Source: Dietzia aurantiaca (GTDB lineage: Bacteria > Actinomycetota > Actinomycetes > Mycobacteriales > Mycobacteriaceae). From it: 64,000 nt of DNA. The position numbers were made by a program, and so were the translations under genes. The notes below the pieces were generated by a model. It made no database searches, was not told the DNA's origin, and saw nothing but the letters and a program-made list of their open reading frames with translations. This document shows, piece after piece, positions 9,915 to 26,675 of the stretch. Each line of letters opens with the position of its first letter. Within the stretch, counting starts at the first letter, position 1. The stretch lies in the NCBI RefSeq assembly GCF_021033825.1, contig NZ_JAIFXZ010000005.1, positions 1 through 64,000 on the forward strand. Reading direction: 5' to 3'.

Positions 9915-11336
9915 TCAGGCGTTCGCGCCCTGCTGCTCCTTGACGGCGGTCAGGATGTCGCCGACGCGGTCCTTGGCGTCACCGAACAGCATGTCGGTGT
10001 TGTCGCGGAAGAACAGCGGGTTCTGGACACCGGCGTAACCGGCGGCCATGGAGCGCTTGAACACGATGACGTTCGAGGCCTCCCACACGTGCAGCACGGG
10101 CATGCCGGCGATCGGGCTGCCCGGGTCCTCGGCGGCGTCGGGGTTGACCGTGTCGTTGGCGCCGATGACCAGCACGACGTCGGTATCGGCGAAGTCGTCG
10201 TTGATCTCGTCGAGCTCGAGCACGATGTCATACGGCACCTTGGCCTCGGCCAGCAGCACGTTCATGTGCCCGGGCAGACGACCGGCGACCGGGTGGACGG
10301 CGAAGCGCACGTCCACGCCGCGGTCCCGCAGGGTGCGGGTCAGGTCGGCCACGGGGTACTGGGCCTGGGCCACGGCCATGCCGTAGCCCGGCGCGATGAT
10401 CACCGAGTTCGCATTCGCGAGCATCTCGGCCGCGCCGGCCACATCGATCTCGGTGTGCTCGCCGTGGTCCTTGCCCTCACCGGAGGAGGCCTCGATACCG
10501 AAGCCACCCATGATGACGGAGAAGAACGAGCGGTTCATCGCCTTGCACATGATGTAGGACAGGTAGGCACCCGAGGAGCCGACGAGCGCGCCGGTCACGA
10601 TCAGCAGGTCGTTGCCGAGCAGGAAGCCGGTGGCCGCTGCCGCCCAGCCGGAGTACGAGTTGAGCATCGACACCACGACGGGCATGTCGCCGCCGCCGAT
10701 GGAGGCCACCAGGTGCCAGCCCAGCGCCAGGGCGAGGATGGTGACGACGACGAGCATCCACAGCGCCGGCGTGATCACGAACCACACCGTCAGCACGATG
10801 AACGCCACGATGATTCCGGCGTTGATCAGGTTCTTACCGGGCAGCACCAGCGGCGCGGACTTCATCTTGGCCGAGAGCTTGAGGTAGGCCACGATCGAGC
10901 CGGTGAAGGTCACGGCGCCGATGAACACACCGATGAACACCTCGGCGTGGTGGATGCCCAGCAAGGATCCGGTCAGCTCACCGTGGAGCTCGGGCTCGAG
11001 GTAACCGTTCCAGCCCACCAGCACGGCGGCCAGACCGACGAACGAATGCAGGAGAGCGATGAGCTCGGGCATCTCGGTCATCTGCACGCTGCGCGCGCGC
11101 ATCAGGCCGATCCCGGCACCGACGATAACGGCGACGGCCATGAGGGCGATGCCGATCGTGGCGGGCTGGTGATCGAGGACCAGGACGACGGTGGCCACCA
11201 GGGCGATGGCCATGCCGGCGATACCGAAGGTCAGTCCGCGACGGGCGGTCTCATGCTTGGACAGGCCTGCCAGGGACAGAATGAACAGCAGCGCTGCGAC
11301 GAGGTAGGCCGCGTTGGCGGCGGTCACGAGTGACAT
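9915..11336 (-). CDS. pntB: NAD(P) transhydrogenase, beta subunit
   Basis: The protein has 473 residues, the normal length. The N-terminal half holds about nine membrane spans (domain dII), and the C-terminal ~180 residues form the NADP(H)-binding dIII domain with the motifs [12 protein letters not shown] and [10 protein letters not shown]. With PntA it couples proton re-entry across the membrane to hydride transfer from NADH to NADP+, supplying NADPH. Its start lies only four bases after the pntA stop, so the two form an operon. The gene ends against the long hairpin at 9805-9863. Confidence 0.95.
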
Positions 11337-11340
11337 GGTC

Positions 11341-12957
11341 TCAGGCTCCCTTCGAGAACATGCCGAGCATGCGACGGGTCACGGCGAAACCGCCGAAGAC
11401 GTTGATGGACGCGACGAGGATCGCGATGGCGGCCAGGGCCAGGCCGACGGAATTGTCGATGCCCACCTGCAAAAGGGCGCCGACGACGATCACGCCGGAG
11501 ATCGCGTTGGTGACCGACATCAGCGGGGTGTGCAACGCGTGGTGCACGTTGCCGATGACGTAGTAGCCGATCACGATCGCCAGCACGAACACCGTGATGT
11601 GCTGCGGCATATCGCCCGGGGCGATCGCGATCAGCACCAGCAGCAGCGCCATGCCCAGGCCGATCAGGCCCATCTTGGCGCCCGACGACATCTTCTTCTT
11701 CTCTTCGGCAGCCTCTGCGGGCGTCGCCGCAGCCGCAGGGGCCGGGGCGGCGCTGACCTGCACGGGGGGCGGCGGCCACATGAGCTCGCCACCCTTGGTG
11801 ACAGTGACGCCGCGCTGGACGACGTCCTCCATGTCCAGCGCCCAGACGCCGTCCTTCTCCGGAGTAACGAGCTTGGTCAGGTTGACCAGGTTCGTGCCGT
11901 ACAGCTGCGAAGCCTGCGCCGGCAGACGCCCCGCCAGGTCGGTGTAACCGATGATCGTGACGCCGTTCTCGGTCACCACGACCTCGTCGGCGACACTGCC
12001 CTCGACGTTCCCGCCCTGGGCAGCGGCCATGTCGACGATGACCGATCCACGCTTCATCGAGGCCACATCCGCGGCGGTGATCAGGCGCGGGGCCGCCCGG
12101 CCCGGGATCAGGGCCGTGGTGATGATGATGTCCACGTCCGCGGCCTGCGTCGTGTACAGATCGGCGGCGGCGCGGTCGTAGGCCTCACTGGTGGCCTTGG
12201 CATAGCCGTCGGAGGAGACCTCTTTCTCCTCGTCCGGAACCTCGACCGGCAGGTACTCGCCACCGATCGACTTGACCTGATCCGCGACCTCGGGCCGCGG
12301 GTCGGTCGCACGCACGATCGCGCCGAGGCTCGAGGCCGCACCGATGGCAGCCAGGCCGGCGACACCGGCACCCGCGACGAGGACCTTGGCCGGCGGGACC
12401 TTGCCCGCGGCGGTGACCTGGCCGGTGAAGAAACGGCCGAAGTGGTGGGCGGCCTCGATCACGGCACGGTAGCCGGCGATGTTGGCCATCGACGACAGCA
12501 CGTCCATCGACTGGGCACGCGAGATACGCGGCACCGCATCCATGGCCAGCGCGGTCACGCCACGCTCGGTCAGCAGGGTGAGCAGACGCTCGTTCTGCGC
12601 GGGGGCCAGAAGGCTCACCAGCGTCGCGCCGGAACGAAGTCGTCCGACCTCGACCTCGGTGGGGACGGCGACCTTCATCACGACATCGCTCGACCAGGCC
12701 GTGTCACCGTCGACCAGCTCCGCACCGGACTCGATATAGGAGGCGTCGGCGAACTCGGCGCGCGTGCCGGCACCGGACTCCACGACGACCCGGTACCCCA
12801 GGCCGATCAGCTTGGCCACGGTCGCGGGGGTGGCCGCGACGCGGTTCTCCGCAGGATTGACCTCCGCGACCACACCGATCACCGAGGGGGCCTCCGCGGC
12901 ATCCCGGACGTCAGTGTCCGGGGTCATATCTGGGATCTCTTCAAGGCTCGAGGCCAT
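11341..12957 (-). CDS. pntA: NAD(P) transhydrogenase, alpha subunit (undivided PntA)
   Basis: The protein has 538 residues. The N-terminal dI domain binds NAD(H): an alanine-dehydrogenase-like fold with [14 protein letters not shown] near the start and the Rossmann motif [15 protein letters not shown], then [12 protein letters not shown]. After a Pro/Ala/Lys linker the C-terminus has several membrane spans, ending in [15 protein letters not shown], the part encoded separately as pntAB in many other actinobacteria. The start at 12957 is set by AAAGGA nine bases upstream; an extra in-frame extension to 13002 lacks support. A ~20-residue acidic N-terminal tail precedes the conserved domain. Confidence 0.95.
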
Positions 12958-13303
12958 TAGGGTTTCCTTTGACAGCGTTGTGAACGAGCCGGTGCTGCGC
13001 ACCGGCTCCGACGTTCATCTCTGCGAGACGTATCTATTTTTCTCCCGGGTCCCGAGACGTGCTCGGGCCCGAGCGCTCCAGTCAACGATCGACCGATCGG
13101 AGCTCACGAGGCGGTGCAGGGTAAAAGGGTGGCCCGTACCTCGTCCGCCGTGGCGGCGTCTCCCCCGGGAGCAGACGGGGGTGCCGCCTTGACTGCCGGG
13201 AGAACTTCCGGCTGAGCCTACGGGACATCGTCGCACCGATTCGACCCGGTACAGCCTGGCCGGGCCAATCTGTGAGACATCCCACAGGAACGTGAGGAAC
13301 GCC
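12958..13303. other. pntA 5' region with several hairpins, no gene seen
   Basis: The 346-bp gap lies between pntA and the upstream flavoenzyme gene. It holds a 9-bp perfect stem with loop CTGCG (12986-13008) 29 bases before the pntA start, a 14-bp perfect palindrome GCTCGGGCCCGAGC (13061-13074), a possible -10 hexamer TAGATA on the minus strand (13031-13036), and a G/C-rich stem around 13151-13187 that could terminate the upstream gene. No riboswitch class is recognised. Confidence 0.45.
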
Positions 13304-14611
13304 TCAGCTCAGAAGCGACCCATCGATCTCGTCCCACGAACTCATGCCGCTCAGGGACAGCGTCAGGTCGATCTCGGCGAGCAGGTTGTCGAGGACCTCA
13401 CCGACTCCGCGCCGTCCCGCGATGGCGAGTCCGTAGAGGTGCGGTCGGCCCAGGGTGACGGCGTCGGCGCCGCAGGCCATCGCCTTGATGACGTCCGCGC
13501 CACCGCGTATGCCCGAGTCGAGCAGAACGGTGGGCTCGGAACCGACCGCCTCGCGGATCCGGACCAGTGCGTCGAGGGTGCCGATGGACCCGTCGACCTG
13601 CCGCCCTCCGTGATTGGAGACCATGACCGCGTCGACGCCGGTATCAAACGCGCGCTGTGCGTCGTCCGGGTGCAGGACGCCCTTGAGCACGATCGGCAGT
13701 CGCGTCCGCTCGCGCAGCGTGGCGAGGTGATCCCAACTGAGCGCGGGGTTGGAGAACGTGTCGAGGAAGGTCTGGACCGCGGCGCGGGTCTCGGGGGCGC
13801 GGAGGTTGTCGAGGAGCCGGCCCGGGCGGTTCCGGGCCATCTCTAGCATCGTCCGCACCGCCTGCGGCGTCACCGTCACCGGTTCGTCCTCCACGTCGGC
13901 GGCCACCCGCTCGGCGACGAGCTCGGCGAACCGCGGATCCGAGGTGTACTGGGCGATGCCGACCCCACGCGTGAACGGCAGCGAGCCCAGGTCGAGGTCC
14001 CACGGACGCCACCCCAGCAGCGTCGTATCCAGCGTCACCACCAGGGCGCCGGCATCGATGGCCTCCGCGCGGGCGATGAAGCTGTCGACCAGCGCCTCGT
14101 CCTTGCTCCAGTACAGCTGGAACCACCGGGAGGCGGAGCCCGTAGACGACGCTTCGTCCATCGCGGCGGCAGTCGCCTCCATCGGCGAGGAACCCTGCGA
14201 GGACAGGATGTAGGGCAGGCCACGCTCCGAGGCCGCCGCTCCCACGTCGAGGTCGGCGTCGCGGGTGATGAGCCCGGCCGCGCCGATCGGGGCGACCAGG
14301 ACCGGTGCGGGCAGCCGTCGGCCGAACAGTTCCACCGAGAGGTCACGCTCGGAGGTGTCCCGCAGCATCCGAGGGACGATCCGGCGGCGGTCAAACGCCT
14401 CGCGGTTGGCGTCCATCGTGGCGCCCGAGCCCGCGCCGCCGTAGATGTACGCCCACGCCCGGCGGCCGCCCGGGCGCCGCAGCAGCGAACGCCTCGCCGC
14501 GGCCTCCAGGCGGCCCGCCTCGGTCGGCACCTTCGGCGTGATCCCGGAGATCCCCGCTCGGTAGATGACGTTCTGGCGGGCGCGGCCGAGAGGGTTCGAG
14601 GGTGAGGGCAT
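13304..14611 (-). CDS. FMN-dependent alpha-hydroxy-acid oxidase (lactate 2-monooxygenase type)
   Basis: The 435-residue protein has the FMN alpha-hydroxy-acid fold: the YIYGGAGSG start, PVLVAPIGAAG, the FMN-phosphate region LLDSGIRGGADVIKA and the catalytic SNHGGRQ near residue 345. The LGWRPWDLDLGSLPF segment after the substrate strand is characteristic of lactate 2-monooxygenases, which convert L-lactate to acetate and CO2, as opposed to the LldD dehydrogenases. Substrate is inferred from that segment only. ATG at 14611 has TAGCGT ending seven bases upstream, so it is probably leaderless. A second family member (LldD2-like) lies at 23596-24849 on the opposite strand. Confidence 0.85.
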   Translation of the reverse strand: MPSPSNPLGRARQNVIYRAGISGITPKVPTEAGRLEAAARRSLLRRPGGRRAWAYIYGGAGSGATMDANREAFDRRRIVPRMLRDTSERDLSVELFGRRLPAPVLVAPIGAAGLITRDADLDVGAAASERGLPYILSSQGSSPMEATAAAMDEASSTGSASRWFQLYWSKDEALVDSFIARAEAIDAGALVVTLDTTLLGWRPWDLDLGSLPFTRGVGIAQYTSDPRFAELVAERVAADVEDEPVTVTPQAVRTMLEMARNRPGRLLDNLRAPETRAAVQTFLDTFSNPALSWDHLATLRERTRLPIVLKGVLHPDDAQRAFDTGVDAVMVSNHGGRQVDGSIGTLDALVRIREAVGSEPTVLLDSGIRGGADVIKAMACGADAVTLGRPHLYGLAIAGRRGVGEVLDNLLAEIDLTLSLSGMSSWDEIDGSLLS

Positions 14612-14711: not shown

Positions 14712-16664
14712 TCAGTTCCCTCCGAACATGCCGGTGAGGCTGCTCAGGCCCTCTTCTCCGAGCGCATCCGTAACACTGCCGAGGTCGAGCGATCCGACCA
14801 TGATCGGGTCCGGCTCAGGCGGCCCGGGCTCCTCGATGACGATCTCCGATGTCGTCACCGTCACCACGGTGGCGGAGGCCGTCTCGGACGGGGCGATCAC
14901 CTCGTCGCTGCCCGAGGCGCCGGAGTAGTCCGCGGTCATGCGGTACTCACCCCGCTCGGCGAACCGGTGCGTGAACACCGCGCTCGCCTCGCCGGTGTCA
15001 CGGTCGATCGTGACCGGTGCCGAGCCGATCGCCTCGCCGTCCGAGAAGAACCACACCGAGCCGAGGTCGTCGGTGCCGGCGTCGGAGAGCTCTCGGCCGT
15101 CGAGACGGGAAACGGTCGCGGTGATGGTGACCTCGTCGCCTGCGGTCGCCTCGGTCTGCAGCTCGATGGTGGTGCCGGAGTCGACCTCGGGCAGCGACTC
15201 CACCGTGAGGGTGGCCGGAGCAGAGGTCACAGGCAGGTAGTACATGCCGTCGATCAGTGCACCCTCGAAGACCGCCTCGATCGTCTTGTCGCCAGGGGTG
15301 GTGAAGACGTGGTCGGCGAGGGTCGCCGAGCCGTCGTCGTCGGTGGTGACGGTGCCGATGTCGCGGCCGTTGGCGCGGATGATCACCTCGGCGCCCGCGG
15401 GCAGCGGTTCACCTCCGGCGGTCATGGCGGCGGTCACGTCCACTGCGCGCCCGACCAGGACGGAGGCCGGATCCACGGCCACGGTGACCTCGGGGGTCGT
15501 CTCGGCGGCCAGCGTCACGTCGACCGGGTCGGACTCGGCCCCGCGGTAGATGGTGTCGTAGGTCTCCGACTCGAGGAGTCGCGCGGTGTAGCGGTAGACG
15601 GTCTCCTCCGCGACGTCCGCGTCGAGGTGGTCGGTGTAGGTCGCCGTGACGCCGTTGACGGCGATGGTGTCGACGACGACGCCGTCGCGCAGAATCTCGA
15701 CCTCGGTCCCCTCCGGCAGATCCGTTCCGCTGCTGGTGTCGACGGCCACGTCGAGGGTGACCGGCAGTTGTCCGTTTTCAACGAGCCCGCGGGTGGCGGT
15801 CAGGCCGACTGTGCTGGTGACCTCCGACTTGGGCTCGGGATCGATCCGCACCGTGTTCGTTGTCCAGTCGGAAGCCGCGAACCTCGGGGCATCTCCCAGG
15901 TAGCGAGCCCGGACTGTCTGGGTGACCGGGTCGCGGTTGTCGAGCAGCGGCGCGGTGTACGGGATGCTGGCGCGGCCGTTGGAGCCGACCGGCACCACAC
16001 CGAGCAAGACGCCATCTACTTCGAACCTGACATCGCCGGCAGTGACCCCGTTGCTGCCGTGAACCGCCCCGACATCCGCGGTGAGCGTGGTGGCGGTGCC
16101 TTCCTCGACGGTGGCCGGGTTAGCGGACACAGACGTGTTGGTTCCGACTGCCCCCAGGGTGAAGCCGACGACGTTGTCAGCGGTCGGTTTCCAACTCCCG
16201 CCAAGACCCAAGTGAGCACGTACACCAAACTGAAAATTAGTTCCGCCATCCGCATTTGAGGGAATGTTGAGTGAGAGCCATCCCGATCGCGATGCACCAG
16301 GCGCTAGAGTTTGGTAAGTAAAGTTTCGGGGCTTGCCACCCCAATACGTCGGCCCCTGGTCGTGATTTCCGACCTCGATAAAGTCAGTTCCCCCGCTACC
16401 TCGCAGCGTGAATCCTGCTGGCACGGTCAGTCCATATGTGTTGACAACCCGGTTATTAATAAGGGGCGCTCCCCCGCGGGTATTAGTGGCACTGATATTG
16501 AAGCGCACATGCCCGCCGGGACGCAGATTGCTCTGCCCGACATCTATAGCGACGTTAAATCGGATGTCGTCGATTCGGGTCTGCCCCGTTTGGGCGTGAG
16601 CGGCAGGCGCGAGGCCCACGATCAGGGCAAGGGCCGCCAAAGCGGCGAGGAGTTTACGAAGCAT
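14712..16664 (-). CDS. Secreted Ig-like repeat protein (650 aa)
   Basis: The protein starts with a classical signal peptide (MLRKLLAALAALALIVG, cleavage after AHA). Residues ~27-190 form a domain shared with the 1090-residue protein at 19539: PGGH near the start, a WW/YW segment, then LNIPSNADGGTNFQFG. Four bacterial Ig-like repeats of ~100 residues follow, each with the VRF-VDG and Y-G/P pattern. The C-terminus after an acidic, proline-rich linker reads SLDLGSVTDALG then SSLTGMFGGN, closely matching the tail of the 796-residue neighbour. No LPXTG, membrane anchor or lipobox is present. It probably sits on the cell surface. AAAGGA precedes the ATG. The 5' third is visibly less GC-rich than the Ig part. 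Confidence 0.75.
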   Translation of the reverse strand: MLRKLLAALAALALIVGLAPAAHAQTGQTRIDDIRFNVAIDVGQSNLRPGGHVRFNISATNTRGGAPLINNRVVNTYGLTVPAGFTLRGSGGTDFIEVGNHDQGPTYWGGKPRNFTYQTLAPGASRSGWLSLNIPSNADGGTNFQFGVRAHLGLGGSWKPTADNVVGFTLGAVGTNTSVSANPATVEEGTATTLTADVGAVHGSNGVTAGDVRFEVDGVLLGVVPVGSNGRASIPYTAPLLDNRDPVTQTVRARYLGDAPRFAASDWTTNTVRIDPEPKSEVTSTVGLTATRGLVENGQLPVTLDVAVDTSSGTDLPEGTEVEILRDGVVVDTIAVNGVTATYTDHLDADVAEETVYRYTARLLESETYDTIYRGAESDPVDVTLAAETTPEVTVAVDPASVLVGRAVDVTAAMTAGGEPLPAGAEVIIRANGRDIGTVTTDDDGSATLADHVFTTPGDKTIEAVFEGALIDGMYYLPVTSAPATLTVESLPEVDSGTTIELQTEATAGDEVTITATVSRLDGRELSDAGTDDLGSVWFFSDGEAIGSAPVTIDRDTGEASAVFTHRFAERGEYRMTADYSGASGSDEVIAPSETASATVVTVTTSEIVIEEPGPPEPDPIMVGSLDLGSVTDALGEEGLSSLTGMFGGN

Positions 16665-16689
16665 GATTGTTGAGTCCTTTTCCTGGCCG

Positions 16690-19080
16690 TCAGCCGCCGA
16701 GCGAGCCGGTGAGGCTGCTCGCGTCGAGGGAGCCGGCGCCGCCGCCGGTCAGAGATCCGAGGTCCAGCGAGCTGCCGCCGGCGCCCGGGCCCACGATGAC
16801 GCCGTCGTCGTCGGTTCCTTCGCCCGTCACGGCGACGGTTACGCCACCGACAGCACGCTCGGTGCCGTCCGCGGAGTGGTAGGTGAACTGGAGGAACTTG
16901 GACTGTGGGTAGCTGCTGGTCCAGGTGACGTCCACGTCGGCGACCCCGCGGGTGACCGCGACGCGCACGGGCTGACCGTCGGCGCCCAAGACCGGCTCGC
17001 CGTTATTGGTGACCGTGAGGTAGCCGTTGAGCGAATCGGCCGAGGTCAGCTCGCCCTGTGGTGCGACCGTCACGCGAAATTCGGCCGACTGCCCCACCTT
17101 CACGGGGCCCTCGGGCCCGGTCACGGTGAGTTCGAGAGCGTCCTCGTCGACGGCCCCCGCCGCCACGCTGATCGTGTGCACCGAACTGTGCGGGCGATGA
17201 ACCCGGGGATCAGCAGGCGTGAAGTCCACCGTCACCTGACGGTCCGTGGCGACGGCCGGGGGAAAGGTCAGGTCGAGAACTCCCTCGCCGTCGACGATCG
17301 CCACATCGGTGGCCACGACGCGGCCGTCGATGCGGACGTCCGCGGTGCCCTCGGCACCCGCCGGGGTTACGACGATCCGGTACGGCGTGGCCACCCCGGG
17401 ACGAGTCTGCGTTGGTCCGATCAGCTGCGAATCAGTGGCGGCAGCGTCGATGACCTGCAAGGTTCCGGAGTCCTCGGCGCGGTTCTGCTCCGACCCGGTC
17501 GGGTGGAAGGTCGCCGAGACCGGCACGTCGCCGGCGCGGCCGAAGCTGAACTCGGCGGCGGCGCGGCCGTCCGCCACGTCGACAATCTGGGTCTGTGAAC
17601 CGGCCACGAACTCGACTCGGCCCTGCGGGTTCTCCGTTCCCTCAGCCGGGTTGACAACCGCTTCCAGCATCACCGGTTCGGCGACGTAGCCGGGGGCGTC
17701 GAGCCCGTTGAGGATCAGCGTGGTGTCGGTGCTCTCCTCCACCAGGATCGAGGCCGACGCCGTGGCCGAGGCGTACGGCGAGGTGGCCGACGGTGTGAAG
17801 ACCGCCTCAACCTCGGTGCTGCCGACCTCGGTGAACGTGAGGCTGGTCGTAGCCCGGCCGTCGCGGACGTCCACCGCCCGCTCCTGTCCACCTCCGCGGA
17901 AGACGACGGTGCCGCGGGCGACAGCCGGGAGGGCGGCGGAGATTGCCGTGCGGGTGTTGGCGTTAGTGGACTCCGGCGCGGAGAGTGTCATTTCCGTGGC
18001 CAGCCGCTCGACCGTGATCGGAAGTTCGGACACCGCAGTCGCGTACCGGGTGTCAGACGGGGTGAAGATCGCCCGGACCGGCCCGGAAGGCTGCTCGGTG
18101 AACGTGAGCTGGGCCCGTGCCTCACCGGTGCCGGTGTTCACGGGGACCGTCACGCGCTGCGCTCCGCTGACAAACGCGACCTCACCGGCGATACGGGGGT
18201 CGACGGTAGCCACGAACTCGGCCGGGGTGCGCAGGTAGACGTTCTCCGGGCCTGTGAGCGTGGACGACGTGGGCAAACCCACGATCTCGATCGACTTCAT
18301 CGACGCGGCGCCCTGGTCGATGGGCGCGGTGGCCGAACCGCGCGGACTGCAGTAGCCCGGGACCCACTGAGTTCCGAGGAGCGGGACGCTGGCGGAAGCA
18401 AGGAGTGTCAGGAAGCTCGCCGCGTTGGGCCCATACCCGGCCGCCTGGCCCTGTGTACGGACACCGATGTCCGCATTGCCTGCACGCTCCGCCTCGAAGG
18501 TCAGCGTGACGCGCGGGAACTCGAAATCCAGAGAGTTTGCACCCGCCAGATTCATCCCGAGGCCCTGGTGGTTGCTCTGCGAGACATTCCCACCGTTGCC
18601 GATGGTGTTATGACCGCTGTCTGTCAGCCGCAACACATTCCCGTTAGGGTCGGGTGTGCCGCCTTCGTTCACGGTGATGACCTGCGCGTTGGCGATCGGG
18701 ATATTTCCGCCGCTGAAACTGGACCTGATCAGCTTCGTTCCCGCGGGCCGCTGCAGGTCGAGCTTGAGTCTCGATGCCTGCTTGAGACTGATGGCACCCG
18801 GCAAACTCTCGAGTGAGACGTTGATCGGGTCGATCTCGAAGGTCACGTCGAACCGGTCCCCGACGTCCACAGCCTCCGGGGCGGTCACGTGGATCCGCAC
18901 CGGGTTCTGAGGCGTGATATCCATTGGCCCGCCCAGACCGCCGACGCTGGGCGCGGCGATGTAGCAAGTGGTGTCGAACGAGGTGGTTGACCGGGTCGTC
19001 TGAGCGGAGGCCACCGACGGGACCGTGGCTACGCCGAGAGTGACGACGGCAGCGGAAAACCACGCGAGTACGCGGCGCAT
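16690..19080 (-). CDS. Secreted Ig-like repeat protein (796 aa)
   Basis: A signal peptide (MRRVLAWFSAAVVTLGVAT, cleavage after ASA) is followed by a ~230-residue N-terminal domain with a single-Cys FDTTCYIAAPSVGG start and a second Cys in WVPGYCSPRG, which could form a disulfide; this domain is not recognised and differs from that of the two sister proteins. Five Ig-like repeats follow (from ~TSSTLTGPENVYL), including ATFHPTGSEQN and DFTPADPRVH. The tail after a Gly/Asp linker reads SLDLGSLTGGG then SSLTGSLGG, the same motif as in the 650-residue protein. Its gene is 25 bases upstream of that gene, so they form an operon. GAGG precedes the ATG. Confidence 0.75.
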   Translation of the reverse strand: MRRVLAWFSAAVVTLGVATVPSVASAQTTRSTTSFDTTCYIAAPSVGGLGGPMDITPQNPVRIHVTAPEAVDVGDRFDVTFEIDPINVSLESLPGAISLKQASRLKLDLQRPAGTKLIRSSFSGGNIPIANAQVITVNEGGTPDPNGNVLRLTDSGHNTIGNGGNVSQSNHQGLGMNLAGANSLDFEFPRVTLTFEAERAGNADIGVRTQGQAAGYGPNAASFLTLLASASVPLLGTQWVPGYCSPRGSATAPIDQGAASMKSIEIVGLPTSSTLTGPENVYLRTPAEFVATVDPRIAGEVAFVSGAQRVTVPVNTGTGEARAQLTFTEQPSGPVRAIFTPSDTRYATAVSELPITVERLATEMTLSAPESTNANTRTAISAALPAVARGTVVFRGGGQERAVDVRDGRATTSLTFTEVGSTEVEAVFTPSATSPYASATASASILVEESTDTTLILNGLDAPGYVAEPVMLEAVVNPAEGTENPQGRVEFVAGSQTQIVDVADGRAAAEFSFGRAGDVPVSATFHPTGSEQNRAEDSGTLQVIDAAATDSQLIGPTQTRPGVATPYRIVVTPAGAEGTADVRIDGRVVATDVAIVDGEGVLDLTFPPAVATDRQVTVDFTPADPRVHRPHSSVHTISVAAGAVDEDALELTVTGPEGPVKVGQSAEFRVTVAPQGELTSADSLNGYLTVTNNGEPVLGADGQPVRVAVTRGVADVDVTWTSSYPQSKFLQFTYHSADGTERAVGGVTVAVTGEGTDDDGVIVGPGAGGSSLDLGSLTGGGAGSLDASSLTGSLGG

Positions 19081-19538
19081 GAATTCCTCGAATGCTCGGA
19101 GGGTATGCCCAGAGGGGCTGGGCGCTTGTCGAGTTACTATGCGAAACTATATAGGTGATTCTCAGTCGCGCAAGGGAGCTGAGGTTCTCGTTCGGGTCAC
19201 GCGATGATGTATCGCTCGCCGTTATCGTGGCATTGACCTGGTTGCCAAATGCCGTCAACCGGCAGTACATCTGCCTGTCTCTCTGGCGGTTTCGGGATTC
19301 GCAGCGCAATCCGCTCGTCCCGAACATTCCCGTCCCCCACAGGGAACCGTGCACTCTCGCCCGTCTCGCCGATCCATGATCCGGCAACAAAATAGTGCTT
19401 TACTTAAATCTCGATTTCATTACTATGGGCATCAGTTCCCCTCGATTCGCCGTCGACTTCTTCTGGCCAAGAACACGCTGTCGGCACGCGTCCAGATCCC
19501 TTTGAGATCTACCCCGCAACCCCTGATGGAGTTCTTCT
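19081..19538. other. Divergent promoter region of the Ig-like genes
   Basis: The 458-bp gap separates the leftward Ig-like operon from the rightward 1090-residue gene. It is clearly AT-richer than its surroundings. Leftward -10 candidates are CATAGT and TATAGT near 19135-19155. Around 19291-19324 there is a nested inverted repeat (TTCGGGA/TCCCGAA outside, GGATT/AATCC inside). TTTACTTAAAT near 19395 could belong to the rightward promoter. No gene is recognised. Confidence 0.45.
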
Positions 19539-22500
19539 ATGTCAGTCGACGTCCGTCCAGCCCACCCGCGCACCGCGGCGATGACTTTGCGATTGGCACG
19601 CATCGCGGTCGGCATAGTCTCGGCGTTGGCCCTCATGCTAGGACTAACTCCTGCCGCATCTGCCCAGACAAGCTCGAGAACTATTGACGGCGATTTTGAC
19701 GTCACCTTGGCAGTCAACGGCTCCCAGAGCACACCACTACCCGGTGGGCACTTGCAGATCGGAGTCTCGCCTCGACAGAACAAGTGCGGTTTCTGGGATA
19801 CCGCCACCGTGCTGTACCAGGCTGGCATACGAGCACCGTCAGGATGGGGGCTCGTCTCCTCAGGTGGCAACATCACCAACGTCCACAATGATCGGAACGC
19901 CAGTTGGTGGATCGGCGAAGTGACAGACATGCCCCTACTGGGCCTCAAATGCGAGTCGCGGAACTTTTGGCTTCGCCTGTCGATCCCGAACAACGCGATG
20001 GGCGGTCAGCAATTCCAATTCGGCGCTGAACTGGACAAGAACCGAACGAGTCGCAAATGGGCGGGCGTCAACGACATCATCCGCTACACCCTGCCCGCCG
20101 TCGCAACCACGACTCAGGCCGTCACCGTCAGCCCAGGCACCGGACGAGTCGGGGAGGACGTCACCCTGTCCACGCGAGTGACCGCCAACCACGGCACCAA
20201 CACCCCTACGGGCACCGTGCGATTCACCGTCGACGGTCAGACCCGCACGGCGACTTTGGTCAACGGGGTCGCGACCACCACGACGTCCTTCTCCACCACA
20301 GGCTCAAAGTCGGTCACAGCCACCTACGTCCCCGGAAACTCCAACCAATGGTCCGGCTCGTCGCGCGATGGGACGGTCAACATCCGGACCGAAGCCACAC
20401 AAACCAACCTGTCGCTCGACCCGGTCGAGGTGCTGACCGGCGGCACCGTTCAGGCCTCGGCCAGCGTAAGCCCGGTCGGCGCGGAAGGCGAGATCGAGTT
20501 CTCCGCCGGCGGCGATCCCGTCCGCGTTCCTGTGGGCGCCGACGGCTCAGCATCCGTAGAGCTCCCGGCCGATTCGACGGGCGAGATGACGGTCACCGCG
20601 ACCTTCATCCCGGCCGACCCGCAGCGCTACACCAGCAGCTCGGACAGCCAGACCGTCTACGTGTACGAGCAGACCTCGACCTCCACTGAAGTCAAGGTCG
20701 ACGCGGACCCTGTCCAGGCCGGTCAGGTGACGACGCTGACCGCGGCCATCACCCCGGAGACCGCGGCGGGGACCATCAGCTTCACCATCGACGGGCAGTC
20801 CTTCCCCGCGACCGTCTCGGGCGGCATCGCCACACTCGAGCACACCTTCCTCGCCGCCGGCCAGCACGTCGTCGTCGCCGACTTCTCCCCCACCGACACT
20901 GACCGCTACCTCACCAGCTCCGACCAGGTGACAGTGAACGTCGAGAGTGAAGCCACGCAGACCGCACTCACACTCGATCCCATCGAGGTCACCGCGGGCG
21001 GCGAGATCAGTGCCACCGCGCAGATCACCCCGGCCGACGCCGACGGCCGGGTCCGCTTCGACTACGCCGACCAGACCCGGACCGTACCGGTCACGGGGGG
21101 CGAGGCCACCGCCACCTTCACGGCGCAATCCGCCGGGACGGGCACCGTCACCGCCACGTTCCTCCCGGCCAACCCGGAGCGCTACACCGGCAGCAGCGAC
21201 AGCCAGACCGTCGACGTCACCGCCGAGACCACGCAGACCGACCTCACGCTGAACTCGCTCGAGGTCACCGCTGGCGGAACCGTCCTGGCTTCGGCCGCGG
21301 TCACCCCGGCCGGCGCGGCGGGCACCGTCGAGTTCACCGCCGGGGAGGACACCGTGAGCGTGCCCGTCGGCGCGGACGGCACCGCCTCCGCCGAGCTCCC
21401 CACCGAGGCGGCCGGGCTGCTCACCGTCACCGCGACGTTCGTCCCCGCGAACCCCGACCGGTACACCGAGAGCACCGATAGTCAGTCGGTCGACGTGCAA
21501 GCCGAGGCCACCGAAACGGTGGTCACCGTCGACACCGACCCGGTACGGCCGGACGAGGAGACCACCCTCACCGCGACCGTCACCCCCGCCGACGCGGTCG
21601 GGACGGTCCTCTTCACGATCGACGAGCAGACCTTTCCCGCGCAGGTCACCGACGGTATCGCCACCTTCGACCACACCTTCGCCATCGCCGGCGACCACGT
21701 CGTGGACGCCACCTTCACGCCCACGGACACCGGTCGATACACCGGCAGCACCGGCCAGATGACCGTGCACGTCGAGACCGAGACCACGCAGACCGCGCTG
21801 AGTCTCGACCCGGTGCAGGTCACCGCCGGTGGGGAGGTGACCGCCACCGCGCGGATCACGCCCGCCGGCGCCGACGGGCAGGTGCGCTTCGACTTCGTCG
21901 ACCAGAACCAGCCCGACCAGAGCCAGACCGTCGACGTGACCGGCGGAGAGGCCGTCGCCACGTTCACCGCTCCGGCCGCCGGGGCCGGCGTCATCACCGC
22001 GACGTTCATCCCGGCCGACCCGCAGCGGTACACCGGCAGCAGCGACACCCGCGACGTGGACGTCGAGGCCGAGTCGACGCAGGTCAGGGTCACCGCGGGT
22101 GCCGAACCGGCCCGGGTCGGCGAGGAGACCACCCTCACCGCGACCGTCACCCCCTCCGGCGCGGCCGGGGCCGTCACGTTCAGGTTCGACGACGACAACG
22201 CTGACGACAGCCTCGGTGGCGACGAGACCGGCGGCAGCGGACGCGAGTTCACCGTGGACGTGATCGACGGCTCGGCCACGCTCACGCACACTTTCCCGGC
22301 GGCAGGAGACGTCGTCGTCGTCGCCACCTTCTCCCCCGCCGACACCGCCCGGTACGCACCCGGCACCGGCCGGACCACCGTCACCGTGGAGGGCGAGGTC
22401 GTGGCCGAGGACACCAGCGTGTCCCTCGCCGCCCCGGACGCGGAGGCCGGCGAGGAGATCACCCTCACCGCCGAGGTGACCCCCGCCGACGCCGAGGGCG

Positions 22501-22811
22501 CAATCCGTTTCACCATCAACGGCGAGGACCACCTCGTCCCGCTGGTCGACGGCGTGGCCACCCTGACCCACGTCGCCGGTGGGCGCGGCAGCTACACGGT
22601 CCGGGCCCAGTTCGTCCCGGCGGATCCCGACGTTCACTCCCCGAGCGAGGCGATCGAGACCCTCACCGTGGTCGACGACGGCGATCCCGGCACCGGCCCG
22701 GACCCCGGCGCGGACGAACCGACCACCGGCTCACTCGCGTTTGTCGGGCTGGTCGCCTCGCTCGCGATCGGCGCCGGTAGCTCGGGATCCCTCGGATCGC
22801 TGGGCAGCTGA
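19539..22811 (+). CDS. Large secreted Ig-like repeat protein (1090 aa)
   Basis: A signal peptide (cleavage after ASA near residue 42) is followed by an N-terminal domain (~45-185) shared with the 650-residue protein: PGGH, a two-Cys segment (NKCGFWD, GLKCESRN), SWWIGEV and LSIPNNAMGGQQFQFG. Nine Ig-like repeats of ~92 residues then run to residue ~1045. Repeats 2-4 (287-564) and 5-7 (565-846) match each other one to one, so a three-domain block has been duplicated. The C-terminus has a short hydrophobic stretch (LAFVGLVASLAIGAG) and ends GSSGSLGSLGS. No LPXTG motif or basic stop-transfer tail. GGAG precedes the ATG at 19539; another ATG at 19581 is possible. Role: probably surface adhesion or envelope structure (inference). 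Confidence 0.75.
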   Translation: MSVDVRPAHPRTAAMTLRLARIAVGIVSALALMLGLTPAASAQTSSRTIDGDFDVTLAVNGSQSTPLPGGHLQIGVSPRQNKCGFWDTATVLYQAGIRAPSGWGLVSSGGNITNVHNDRNASWWIGEVTDMPLLGLKCESRNFWLRLSIPNNAMGGQQFQFGAELDKNRTSRKWAGVNDIIRYTLPAVATTTQAVTVSPGTGRVGEDVTLSTRVTANHGTNTPTGTVRFTVDGQTRTATLVNGVATTTTSFSTTGSKSVTATYVPGNSNQWSGSSRDGTVNIRTEATQTNLSLDPVEVLTGGTVQASASVSPVGAEGEIEFSAGGDPVRVPVGADGSASVELPADSTGEMTVTATFIPADPQRYTSSSDSQTVYVYEQTSTSTEVKVDADPVQAGQVTTLTAAITPETAAGTISFTIDGQSFPATVSGGIATLEHTFLAAGQHVVVADFSPTDTDRYLTSSDQVTVNVESEATQTALTLDPIEVTAGGEISATAQITPADADGRVRFDYADQTRTVPVTGGEATATFTAQSAGTGTVTATFLPANPERYTGSSDSQTVDVTAETTQTDLTLNSLEVTAGGTVLASAAVTPAGAAGTVEFTAGEDTVSVPVGADGTASAELPTEAAGLLTVTATFVPANPDRYTESTDSQSVDVQAEATETVVTVDTDPVRPDEETTLTATVTPADAVGTVLFTIDEQTFPAQVTDGIATFDHTFAIAGDHVVDATFTPTDTGRYTGSTGQMTVHVETETTQTALSLDPVQVTAGGEVTATARITPAGADGQVRFDFVDQNQPDQSQTVDVTGGEAVATFTAPAAGAGVITATFIPADPQRYTGSSDTRDVDVEAESTQVRVTAGAEPARVGEETTLTATVTPSGAAGAVTFRFDDDNADDSLGGDETGGSGREFTVDVIDGSATLTHTFPAAGDVVVVATFSPADTARYAPGTGRTTVTVEGEVVAEDTSVSLAAPDAEAGEEITLTAEVTPADAEGAIRFTINGEDHLVPLVDGVATLTHVAGGRGSYTVRAQFVPADPDVHSPSEAIETLTVVDDGDPGTGPDPGADEPTTGSLAFVGLVASLAIGAGSSGSLGSLGS
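20397..22076 (+). repeat. Two tandem three-Ig-domain blocks (~840 bp each)
   Basis: Within the 1090-residue protein gene, 20397-21230 and 21231-22076 encode domains in the same A-B-C order. A domains share GGTV-ASA and VPVGADG-AS-ELP; B domains share FTID-Q-FPA-V and AG-HVV; C domains share GGE-TGGEA-ATFTA. The blocks have diverged, so the duplication is not recent. Confidence 0.7.
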
Positions 22812-22847
22812 CCACCGGTCGACCCCGCGCGACCACCCCACACACGA

Positions 22848-22869
22848 CGGTCCGTCGACCGACGGACCG
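22848..22869. terminator. Hairpin between the large and small secreted-protein genes
   Basis: CGGTCCGT and ACGGACCG form a perfect 8-bp stem around CGACCG. It may limit read-through from the Ig-like gene into the small secreted-protein gene; there is no T-run. Confidence 0.4.
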
Positions 22870-22901
22870 CGACCGCCCTCCCCCCTCGACAGGAGATCCC
22901 C

Positions 22902-23417
22902 ATGTCCCTCACCCGAACCGCCACCCGCGTCGCCGCAGCTCTCGCCGCTTCGGCAGCCCTCACCGTCGGCGCCGCCGGCGTCGCGTCCGCCGCGACCGTC
23001 AGCAACACCGTCGACGGCAACTCGGTGTCTGTCACCTTCAAGGTCGGGCTCACCGACCTCACCACCCCCGTCGACGGCTGCGTCGCCGTGGTGGCCGAGC
23101 GCGGCCGGGCCGACGGAGTCATCGACCACATCAAGAACCTCGTCGATCTGGGCAACATCTCGGACGTGCTCTCCGGCGAGCGGACCACCGTCCTGCGCAC
23201 CGACACCGGCTCGCCGGTGGCGCTGCCCGTACTGACCCGCCCGGTGACGCTCTCGGCCGACGGCATCGCGGACGGAGTGCACTCGCTGGTCACCTACTGC
23301 GCCACCGACACCGTCCCGGTCATGCGCACGATCGTCGTGGGGGACGCCCAGAACACCACGGGCAGCATCGTCAGCGAGGGGCCCGCCCTCATCTCCTCCG
23401 GGATGAACTTCTTCTGA
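22902..23417 (+). CDS. Small secreted hypothetical protein
   Basis: The protein has 171 residues with a signal peptide ending VASAAT (cleavage after ~30) and a predicted beta-rich mature part of ~140 residues. Two cysteines (DGCVAVV and VTYCATD) could pair. It has two repeats of a VS-V/VTLSADG-type strand pattern but no recognised family, and it lacks the SLDLGS tail of its larger neighbours; it ends in ISSGMNFF with a C-terminal aromatic residue, a feature also seen in outer-membrane-directed proteins. ACAGGAG is nine bases before the ATG. It is 90 bases downstream of the 1090-residue gene and probably shares its transcript in part, suggesting a joint envelope role. Confidence 0.7.
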
Positions 23418-23433: not shown

Positions 23434-23479
23434 CGACCCCCTCCCGTGAGCTGCCAACGCGCATGCGGTGAGGGGGTCG
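23434..23479. terminator. Terminator after the small secreted-protein gene
   Basis: CGACCCCCTC (23434-23443) and GAGGGGGTCG (23470-23479) are perfect 10-base arms; a T-rich GCTTGTTTGC follows. It closes the rightward Ig-like transcript. Confidence 0.6.
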
Positions 23480-23595
23480 GCTTGTTTGCGGCAAAGATCG
23501 ATCCGGCCACGGTCGCCCACCAGCTCGATGACCCCTACCGTGTGACGTACGGCACGAGATGTGCGGGAACGAACGACGAAAGGCGGCCGATCGTC

Positions 23596-24849
23596 ATGGT
23601 CAAGCGTCAGGTACCGAAGCCGAGCGAGATCTTCGAACTCATGCAGTTCCGCAAGCCGAGTCTGGATTTCCGGGCCAACCGCCTGTCCCGCGCGCAGTCG
23701 ATTCCGGATCTCCGCGCGATCGCCAAGCGGCGTACTCCCGCCGCGGCGTTCGACTACACCGACGGCTCGGCGGACCGGGAGATCTCCCTCACTCGCGCAC
23801 GGAAGGCGTTCGAAGACGTCGAACTCCATCCGGGCGTGCTCACCGACGTCTCGGACCTCGACACCACCACGACGATTCTCGGGAGTCCGTCCGCTCTGCC
23901 GTTCGGCATCGCGCCGATCGGGTTCACCCGGCTCATGCAGACCGAGGGCGAGATCGCCGGAGCCGGGTCGGCGGCCGCTGCCGGTATCCCGTTCTCCCTC
24001 TCCACCCTGGGGACCACGTCGATTGAGGACGTCCGCGCCACCGCGCCGGACGGTCGCCTCTGGTACCAGCTTTACGTGATGAAGGACCGCGACATCTCCT
24101 ACGGCCTGGTCGACCGCGCGGCCGCGGCCGGCTTCGACACCCTGCTCTTCACCGTCGACACCCCGATCGCCGGCAACCGCATGCGGGACGCCCGCAACGG
24201 ATTCTCCATCCCGCCGCAGCTCACCGCCAAGACGATCCTCGACGCCATCCCGCGGCCCTGGTGGTGGTGGGACTTCCTCACCACGCCGAAGTTGGAGTTC
24301 GCCTCGCTCACGACCACCGGCGGCACGGTCGGTCAGTTGCTCGACAGCGCGATGGACCCGTCGATCGACTTCGACGACCTCGCGGAGATCCGCCGGATGT
24401 GGCCCGGGAAGCTCGCCATCAAGGGGGTCCAGAACGTCGAGGACGCCCGAAAGCTCGTGGACCTGGGTGTGGACGCCATCATCCTGTCCAACCACGGTGG
24501 TCGTCAGCTCGACACCGCGCCGGTGCCGTTTCACCTGCTCCCGGAGGTCAGGAAGGCAGTCGGGGACGACGTGGACATCATCATCGACACCGGCATCATG
24601 CACGGCGCCGACATCGTCGCCGCCATCGCGATGGGCGCCTCGTTCACCCTCGTCGGCAGGGCCTACCTCTACGGCCTCATGGCCGGGGGCCGCGAGGGCG
24701 TGGACCGGGCCATCGAGATCCTGTCCTCCGAGGTGCGGCGCACCATGAAGCTGCTGCAGGTCGGATCCGTGGAGGAACTCGAGCCGCGGCACGTCACCCA
24801 GCTGCGTTCGCTCGTGCCGATCGAGCACGGCGTGCAGAAACCGGTGTAG
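23596..24849 (+). CDS. lldD2: LldD2-like quinone-dependent L-lactate dehydrogenase
   Basis: The 417-residue flavoenzyme aligns by eye along its whole length with mycobacterial LldD2: [74 protein letters not shown] with the catalytic His/Arg, and [20 protein letters not shown] for FMN phosphate. It oxidises L-lactate to pyruvate at the membrane and passes electrons on to the respiratory chain, allowing growth on lactate. The start at 23596 is preferred over a longer frame because homology begins at [12 protein letters not shown] palindromic terminator follows at 24911. Confidence 0.9.
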
Positions 24850-25177: not shown

Positions 25178-25254
25178 CGACCGGATGCCGCCGAGGGCGG
25201 CCCGACCGGTCGTGCCCGAGAGGCCACGACATGTGGAGAGAGAGGAGGCGCGAC

Positions 25255-26127
25255 GTGGGCATAGTCGGCAAGTTCGAACGGACCCTGCAGGGCGCTGTGG
25301 GCGACGCGTTCGCCCGTCTCTTCGGCGGCAGGGTGGTCGCGGCCGAGGTGGAGGCCCAGCTACGCAAGCAGGCGGAGGCCTCCCTCAAGGTGGTCGACGG
25401 ACATCTGCTGGTGTCCAACAGCTACACCATCACCCTGGCCCGGTCCGATTACGCGTCGTTCACCGAGGACGAGGCGCTGGCCGTCAAGACCTTCTCCCGC
25501 CACCTCTCGGACCACATCGGCGAGCAGGGCTGGGAGACGTACGGTCCGGTGGCCGTGACATTCGTCGAGCGTGATGATCTCCACACCGGACAGATGCGCA
25601 TCGACGGGATCGTGGATCCCGATGCCGTTCCGTTCCACATCTCGGCCGCCGCGCCGGCTCCGGCCCCGGATCACCCGGCGCCGTCGTCGCCCGCGTCCGA
25701 TTCGTCGTGGGCGAGCAAGGAGAGCAACGACATGCAGGCACCCGCGTCCAACTATCCCGTCTCGGCACGGCAGCCCGACCAGGGCGCCGGCTGGGGCGGC
25801 CCGTCCGACGCCCCGACCCGGATCACCCAGGGCCGATCATCGCTGACGGTGACGCTGCACCTCGAGGACGGCTCCGGCCGCACCTTCCGCCTGCAGCGGG
25901 GTTCCAACCTGCTCGGCCGCGGTCAGGATGCGGCGTTCCGCCTGCCGGACACCGGTGTGTCGCGGCAGCACGCGGACATCCGGTTCGACGGCCGCGAGGC
26001 ACTCCTGACCGACCTCGGTTCGACCAACGGCACCACGGTCAACGGTGGACCCGTGCAGGATTGGCAATTGGCCGACGGGGATGTGATCCGCGTCGGGCAC
26101 TCGGAGATCGTCGTACGGTTCGACTAG
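25255..26127 (+). CDS. fhaA: FhaA: DUF3662 and FHA domain protein
   Basis: The protein has 290 residues. The N-terminal ~120 residues are the DUF3662 domain (GKFERTLQGAVGDAFARLFGG, then EAQLRKQAEA and RSDYASFTEDE). A short Pro/Ser linker leads to an FHA domain at ~200-290 with the phosphothreonine-binding GSNLLGRGQD, VSRQHADIRFDG and DLGSTNGTTVNGG. In mycobacteria FhaA binds the phosphorylated pseudokinase MviN and regulates peptidoglycan synthesis; its own phosphorylation is by PknB. It is about half the length of the M. tuberculosis protein (527 aa), which has a long disordered linker. The GTG at 25255 is chosen for the GAGGAGG seven bases before it. Confidence 0.93.
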   Translation: MGIVGKFERTLQGAVGDAFARLFGGRVVAAEVEAQLRKQAEASLKVVDGHLLVSNSYTITLARSDYASFTEDEALAVKTFSRHLSDHIGEQGWETYGPVAVTFVERDDLHTGQMRIDGIVDPDAVPFHISAAAPAPAPDHPAPSSPASDSSWASKESNDMQAPASNYPVSARQPDQGAGWGGPSDAPTRITQGRSSLTVTLHLEDGSGRTFRLQRGSNLLGRGQDAAFRLPDTGVSRQHADIRFDGREALLTDLGSTNGTTVNGGPVQDWQLADGDVIRVGHSEIVVRFD

Positions 26128-26216
26128 CCTCCACTACAGCGGAATGTCCCCCGGAACCCCGGGGGACGATGACACGTTGGTAGAGGTGACAGACCGGCGA
26201 GGGGAGGACAACAGCG

Positions 26217-26675
26217 ATGCAGGGACTCGTTCTGCAGCTTTCGCGTGGCCTTCTGCTGGTCTTGCTGTGGCTGTTCATCTATCTGACGCTGCGCGCGCTC
26301 AGGACCGACGTGTTCGGCAATGTGGGCATGCGCTCGGGCGGTCGCGGTGAGCGCACGGGGGGCTTCCTCAGCCGCGGCTCCAAGACGATCCGGCACCTGG
26401 TGGTCACGCAGGGCGCCCTGGCGGGCACCCGCATCACGCTGTCCGAGCAACCGGTCCTGTTGGGCCGGGCCGACTCGTGCACGCTGGTGATCGATGACGA
26501 CTACGCGTCGAACCAACACGCCAGATTGTCTCCACACGGCCCTGACTGGTTCCTCGAGGACCTCGGGTCGACAAACGGGACCTATCTGGACAGATCGAGG
26601 GTCACCACCCCGGTCAAGGTGGAGGCCGGGACGCCGATCCGGATCGGCAAGACCGTGATCGAGCTACGCGCGTGA
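26217..26675 (+). CDS. fhaB: FhaB/FipA: membrane-anchored FHA protein
   Basis: This 152-residue protein has one N-terminal membrane span (LVLQLSRGLLLVLLWLFIYL) and a C-terminal FHA domain with PVLLGRADSCTLVI, SNQHARLSPHG and DLGSTNGTYLD. FhaB is a substrate of PknA/PknB and helps link them to FtsZ and the division site. GGGGAGG precedes the ATG. Its last codons overlap the pstP start by four bases (GTGA), so the two are translationally coupled. The order fhaA-fhaB-pstP-rodA-pbpA-pknA-pknB is the canonical one. Confidence 0.93.
   Translation: MQGLVLQLSRGLLLVLLWLFIYLTLRALRTDVFGNVGMRSGGRGERTGGFLSRGSKTIRHLVVTQGALAGTRITLSEQPVLLGRADSCTLVIDDDYASNQHARLSPHGPDWFLEDLGSTNGTYLDRSRVTTPVKVEAGTPIRIGKTVIELRA

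Follow-up and report, generated by a model that had tools for sequence, protein, structure and literature searches.

A C-terminal GSL tail shared by secreted Ig-like proteins and haem-binding proteins of Dietzia suggests a mycomembrane tag

A cluster of genes in Dietzia aurantiaca raises the question of protein sorting to the mycolic-acid outer membrane (mycomembrane) in a concrete form: how might large secreted Ig-like proteins be attached to the cell when they lack the known types of anchor? The window analysed here is a stretch of 64,000 nucleotides (positions 1 to 64,000 of contig NZ_JAIFXZ010000005.1). Four of its open reading frames (ORFs), all with export signals, lie in the order P4<-P3 / P2->P1, with P2 and P1 on the minus strand and P3 and P4 on the plus strand:

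14712..16664, minus strand: P1, 650 aa; signal peptide, N-terminal domain, Big_3_5 repeats, E/P linker, GSL tail (ORF, Pfam, orthologues 69-75% identical)
14853..16139, minus strand: Ig-like repeat region of P1, three Big_3_5 matches
16690..19080, minus strand: P2, 796 aa; signal peptide, two-cysteine N-terminal domain, Big_3_5 repeats, GSL tail (ORF, Pfam, orthologues 72-80% identical)
19081..19538, no strand: divergent intergenic region between P2 and P3, 458 bp
19539..22811, plus strand: P3, 1090 aa; signal peptide, N-terminal domain, nine Big_3_5 repeats, acidic linker, GSL tail (ORF, Pfam); alternative start codon at 19581
20121..22670, plus strand: nine Big_3_5 Ig-like repeats of P3 (Pfam)
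22902..23417, plus strand: P4, 171 aa; small exported two-cysteine protein with a conserved, partly tail-like end (ORF, orthologues)

By ORF coordinates, 25 bp separate P2 from P1 and 90 bp separate P3 from P4; no sigma-70-like consensus was found in the intergenic region between P2 and P3. Big_3_5 (PF16640) was the only Pfam family recognised in P1, P2 and P3, over three, four and nine stretches, with scores of 100, 63 and 253 bits, respectively, all above the gathering cut-off of 35.5 bits. The description given by the initial annotation, of secreted Ig-like proteins encoded divergently together with a small secreted protein, is confirmed by these ORFs, their export signals and the Big_3_5 matches. 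P1 to P4 are real genes, since the orthologues of P1, P2 and P4 are 69-80% identical and the gene order P4-P3-P2-P1 is conserved in other Dietzia. Ig-like repeat surface proteins are ordinary as such, and P1-P3 resemble other Big_3_5 proteins in stacking these repeats behind a signal peptide. They differ from them in their unassigned N-terminal domains and in the GSL tail, which replaces a sortase or membrane anchor. The mature forms of P1-P3 are strongly acidic (charge of -40 to -91).

Homologous loci were named by a scan with the P2 domain in Dietzia cinnamea, Dietzia sp. NCCP-2495 and Candidatus Dietzia intestinigallinarum; a first scan of the genome contigs with the whole of P1 gave no match. 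P3 is more divergent among relatives, also in repeat number (1090, 1349, 1387 and 1439 aa), and one relative carries a remodelled version of the cluster with three genes (L047). The cluster adjoins the same two pntA/pntB-like genes (window 9915-13002) in three relatives, and the flanks differ elsewhere. In the window it is flanked by two lactate-dehydrogenase-like (FMN alpha-hydroxyacid) genes, at 13304-14611 and 23446-24849; the counterpart of the former is shortened or in pieces at two related loci (L065 and L066), and that of the latter is absent from most relatives. Soon past the cluster start FHA-domain genes like fhaA/fhaB (window 25231-26675), which in mycobacteria sit near the replication origin. 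A phage origin of P1-P3 was considered and set aside: phrog_33716 matches the three proteins, mainly over the repeats but in P2 from residue 10. P2 and the N-terminal domain of P1 had no match in phages, the P2 domain had none in viral contigs, and P1 had none in plasmids.

The heads of these proteins are of two kinds:

16146..16589, minus strand: N-terminal domain of P1, from the mature start to residue 173; predicted Ig-like beta-sandwich (alignment, AlphaFold2, Foldseek)
19665..20105, plus strand: copy of the P1-type N-terminal domain in P3 (alignment)
18292..19005, minus strand: N-terminal domain of P2 (Cys39, Cys244); some orthologues have sub-threshold DIP2116-like_N matches

As the initial annotation had noticed, P1 and P3 share a domain of about 150 aa (35% identity, E=1.4e-19) that fits no named family: searches of Pfam, NCBIfam, PHROGs and PDB sequences gave nothing above threshold. 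The residues invariant over 11 aligned domains are mostly prolines and glycines (P-G, G..P.G, G, G, R, IP, GG, G). The motifs first proposed for the domain stand in part: in the 11 sequences, PGG, IP..A.GG, FG and the G-G that precedes the aromatic segment are invariant or nearly so, whereas the W-W/Y-W segment is not strictly kept. An AlphaFold2 model of the P1 domain, built from the sequences of the window and of the named loci, is nearly all beta (pLDDT 91.3, pTM 0.86). Foldseek matched this Ig-like sandwich to a broad set of Ig-like/E-set, cohesin, CBM and appendage sandwiches in the PDB, with the top query TM-score (0.61, E 9e-5) for 3lso, a Corynebacterium diphtheriae protein with a putative membrane anchor. 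In the models, this likeness to a C. diphtheriae surface protein is at the fold level only. The P1-type domain was present in 7 of the 23 Dietzia genomes, the source genome counted, and had no convincing match in the 378 other Mycobacteriaceae genomes. Beyond the cluster-bearing Dietzia, the 401 genomes of the family yielded weak partial matches (best E 6e-7), which were rejected as true domains, several or most of them being signal peptides. Two came from Ig-like proteins that lie outside Dietzia and have another head; one of these proteins has a clear GSL tail. The head of P1 and P3 is, as far as the model goes, a genus-limited new member of a common fold.

The claim that the third protein has a different, two-cysteine head also holds: profile comparison detected no homology between the P1 and P2 types (E 0.59), and the cysteines are residues 39 and 244. 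The model of the P2 domain is poor (pLDDT 65); its first fold match in the PDB is again 3lso (E 7e-6, TMq 0.43), and leukocidin-type matches were set aside as products of a low-confidence model with TM-scores of 0.35 or less. DIP2116-like_N (PF22089) is probably the family represented by 3lso. It matched weakly five of the nine P2-type domains (best 20.8 bits, below the curated cut-off of 27 bits) and had no match in the P2 of the window or in the source genome. DIP2116-like_N/3lso may resemble both heads in fold, as first fold match of P2 and best query TM-score for P1, and differs in that the P2-type domains stay under the cut-off and that 3lso is described as membrane anchored. From these models, we read both heads as probably sharing a fold class with surface proteins of mycolate bacteria, a likeness that does not by itself establish family membership or function.

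The feature that the initial annotation overlooked lies at the other end of the proteins. A tail of the GSL type (GSLDLGSL...GSLGS), free of Lys and Arg, closes P1-P3 and their orthologues; in P3 it includes a hydrophobic stretch:

14715..14795, minus strand: GSL tail of P1, GSLDLGSVTDALGEEGLSSLTGMFGGN (protein C-terminus)
16693..16782, minus strand: region of the GSL tail of P2, GGSSLDLGSLTGGGAGSLDASSLTGSLGG (protein C-terminus)
22722..22808, plus strand: GSL tail of P3 with its hydrophobic stretch, TTGSLAFVGLVASLAIGAGSSGSLGSLGS (protein C-terminus)

P2 ends in GSSLDLGSLTGGGAGSLDASSLTGSLGG. The last 40 residues of P1, P2 and P3 hold no lysine or arginine, acidic residues are present in the tails of P1 and P2, and every orthologue of the three proteins that was read to its end has the tail, preceded by a Pro/acidic linker that varies. 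For P1 and P4, conservation of the tail hardly exceeds that of the remaining protein, and the conserved end of P4 resembles a GSL tail in part only. The proteins had been described as having no anchor. This holds for the known types: none of the proteins has an LPXTG, the hydrophobic helix with a basic end that accompanies it in sortase substrates, or a lipobox cysteine after the signal peptide. It does not extend to anchoring in general, as the GSL tail is a candidate attachment. NCBIfam found nothing in the tails, and a full-text literature search for GSLGS gave nothing relevant among the matches listed. We know of no description of the GSL tail as a sorting element.

Are such tails found on other exported proteins? 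In the source genome, GSL-type ends occur in three other Ig-like or related exported proteins with different heads (two at L048 and one at L049). At these loci (L048:3436-9396, G000 C7; L049:3194-4909, G000 C1) lies a second cluster, in which two Big_3_5 proteins (1425 and 507 aa) are accompanied by a protein of 571 aa that is distantly related to P2. A tail census was then made in 2.0 Mb of a related genome (G015) and 0.4 Mb of a genome of another genus (G208), using a home-made gene caller, a simple export-signal rule and a strict tail rule whose motif was defined after seeing P1-P3. Strict tails were found in 6 of the 168 Sec-type genes of G015 vs 3 of its 1588 other genes (p=4.6e-5), with 0.53 tails expected over all genes when the ends are shuffled, and the excess remained without the homologues of P1-P3 (p=0.001). 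Two of the three bearers among the other genes are a Tat-signal sulfatase and the P3 homologue, which the export-signal rule had not counted as Sec-type because its tail is hydrophobic. In G208, the counts were 4 of 39 Sec-type genes vs 0 of 289 others (p=0.0015 once one repetitive protein is dropped). Given these small counts and a motif taken beforehand from P1-P3, the census is support and not proof. GSLGSL tails also end two adjoining Ig-like proteins of G208 (L137:9613-13861) that have different heads; the tail is therefore not confined to Dietzia. The Pfam domains of tail bearers comprise sulfatase, HtaA, BspA-type LRR with List_Bact repeats, and Big_3_5. Bearers without a Pfam domain are a 254-aa HtaB-like neighbour of HtaA, a 240-aa GSL-rich protein and a protein of 257 aa, in which the match could be due to chance. 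At the DNA level, a degenerate 18-bp pattern for GSLGS-stop (GGNWSNCTNGGNWSNTRR) showed no excess in the 401 genomes, with counts at or below the control; it is too degenerate. The tail, a very short query, had no match in plasmids.

Among these cargoes, HtaA is useful because one HtaA protein was localised. Wang and co-workers used western blot and immuno-electron microscopy to localise DtHtaA (QGW23845.1), a single-HtaA protein adjoining haem ABC genes in Dietzia sp. DQ12-45-1b, to the mycomembrane and the surface of its vesicles; these mycomembrane vesicles also contain DtHtaB (QGW23844.1) (PMC8027190). Proteins of the tail-bearing type are therefore probably mycomembrane proteins in Dietzia. 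All seven single-HtaA proteins of Dietzia, that of the source genome included, end in an acidic Gly linker followed by ...FGSLG[NT][LI]F..., and their last 30 columns are 54% identical vs 27% in the preceding 30, which correspond to the linker. The HtaB-like protein of the same haem locus has LGSL/FGSL-type motifs at its end. From these orthologues, we infer that DtHtaA itself carries a GSL tail. DtHtaA and DtHtaB are like the HtaA and HtaB-like proteins with GSL-type tails of other Dietzia and share their kind of gene neighbourhood; they differ from P1-P3 in having haem-binding domains instead of Ig rods, and the part of the report available to us does not mention the tail (PMC8027190). In the source genome, the haem locus (L227:4983-8985, G000 C36) encodes a large HtaA-domain protein, the HtaB-like protein, a haem-oxygenase-like gene product and the single-HtaA protein. 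The larger HtaA-domain paralogue ends in an ordinary membrane helix followed by RRKD or LRKD, so that two C-terminal address types stand side by side.

We propose that P1-P4 would be exported by Sec to the cell surface, where P1-P3 would form rods made of a beta-sandwich head, a stalk of Ig repeats, a negatively charged flexible linker and the K/R-free GSL tail. After export, the tail would be retained in the mycomembrane, and with the C-terminus held there the head would project outward. To judge from the sequences and from the analogy with HtaA, we consider that the tail probably does retain these proteins, by a fairly narrow preference. As for the chemistry, we would favour a secreted mycoloyltransferase that O-mycoloylates the tail serines, a step that we put forward tentatively and by analogy; alternatively, the Gly/Ser/Leu-rich peptide might itself insert, that of P3 being clearly hydrophobic. 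In Corynebacterium glutamicum, O-mycoloylation esterifies serines, and rarely threonines, of mycomembrane proteins, at sites clustered in flexible, accessible Ser/Gly/Ala-rich stretches without a strict consensus, and it has been proposed to direct proteins to this membrane (PMC11066868). P1-P3 are likewise exported and carry clustered serines in a flexible Gly/Ala/Ser context, and a multi-serine tail flanked by Gly and Leu is, by analogy, an apt substrate. The source genome has ten matches above cut-off to the PF00756 esterase family, which includes mycoloyltransferases. The C. glutamicum proteins are similar in their several clustered serines, in flexible Ser/Gly-rich stretches in loops or near termini; they differ in that the available part of that study describes no compact repeated GSL end, while the Dietzia tails are known from sequence alone (PMC11066868). 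The broadest version, in which the GSL tail acts as a multi-serine O-mycoloylation acceptor and is a general signal that targets and anchors proteins to the mycomembrane in Dietzia and one or more further genera, is doubtful.

Several explanations compete with this one. P1-P3 could be released to the medium or matrix, with the tail as a flexible low-complexity end that keeps the repeats soluble and with surface contact made by the N-terminal domains or Ig repeats. The strong negative charge of the mature proteins and the acidic residues in the tails of P1 and P2 would fit this, as would the ease with which Gly/Ser runs generally arise at gene ends in high-GC genomes. However, the tails exceed composition shuffles, they are common to unrelated exported proteins including a Tat substrate, the HtaA orthologues keep them across a fast-changing linker, and DtHtaA resides in the mycomembrane (PMC8027190), so that we regard release as unlikely. 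A modular tail behind a linker on many cargoes also recalls C-terminal sorting signals, and a dedicated enzyme or export machine might cleave or couple it, as in the LPXTG/sortase, PEP-CTERM or type IX systems; the source genome has one sortase-family gene. Such an enzyme is quite improbable in view of the missing LPXTG, the missing membrane helix with a basic end (P3 alone is hydrophobic), the lack of a conserved single cleavage motif and the silence of NCBIfam on the tails.

The proteins might finally be ordinary fast-evolving Ig-like adhesins anchored by an N-terminal domain that binds arabinogalactan or mycolates, the tail being irrelevant. That domain is the unique module of P1 and P3, and CBM and cohesin sandwiches are among its neighbours in fold, but P2, HtaA and others carry the tail without it and it is limited to few Dietzia, which makes this the least probable of the readings. 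On the strength of the tail, the HtaA localisation and the O-mycoloylation evidence, we rank retention by the tail above a mere linker, the linker above a dedicated sorting enzyme, and the latter above anchoring by the N-terminal domain.

If retention by the tail is correct, the head and stalk would serve as a surface layer or adhesin. From the architecture alone, we infer a role in a surface layer, in adhesion to surfaces or oil, or in self-aggregation; acylation and ligand binding are speculative. The surface or mycomembrane-associated structural or adhesive apparatus envisaged by the initial annotation gains support for its attachment, through a concrete candidate common to the single-HtaA type localised to the mycomembrane, and less for its function. 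The absence of a strict consensus may impede the prediction of O-mycoloylated proteins, as noted in the O-mycoloylome study (PMC11066868). The tail shared by Ig rods and haem-binding proteins suggests, at the level of sequence, an undescribed C-terminal mycomembrane tag. If so, a short, portable tail, carried by cargoes as different as Ig stalks, haem-binding proteins, an LRR protein and a sulfatase, would offer a direct, testable handle on sorting, the last 30 residues could reveal the outer-membrane placement of a protein, and the tail could explain how DtHtaA-like vesicle proteins ride on the mycomembrane.

Two of the tail bearers of G015 are peculiar in themselves. The Tat-signal sulfatase (L094:10385-12145, minus strand) ends in PSGSLGAGSLGSVAMS, so that a tail of this kind is also found on an enzyme exported through Tat. 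The 240-aa exported protein (L084:568-1290, minus strand) consists mostly of GSL motifs spaced by acidic stretches and might be a hub or carry multiple modifications.
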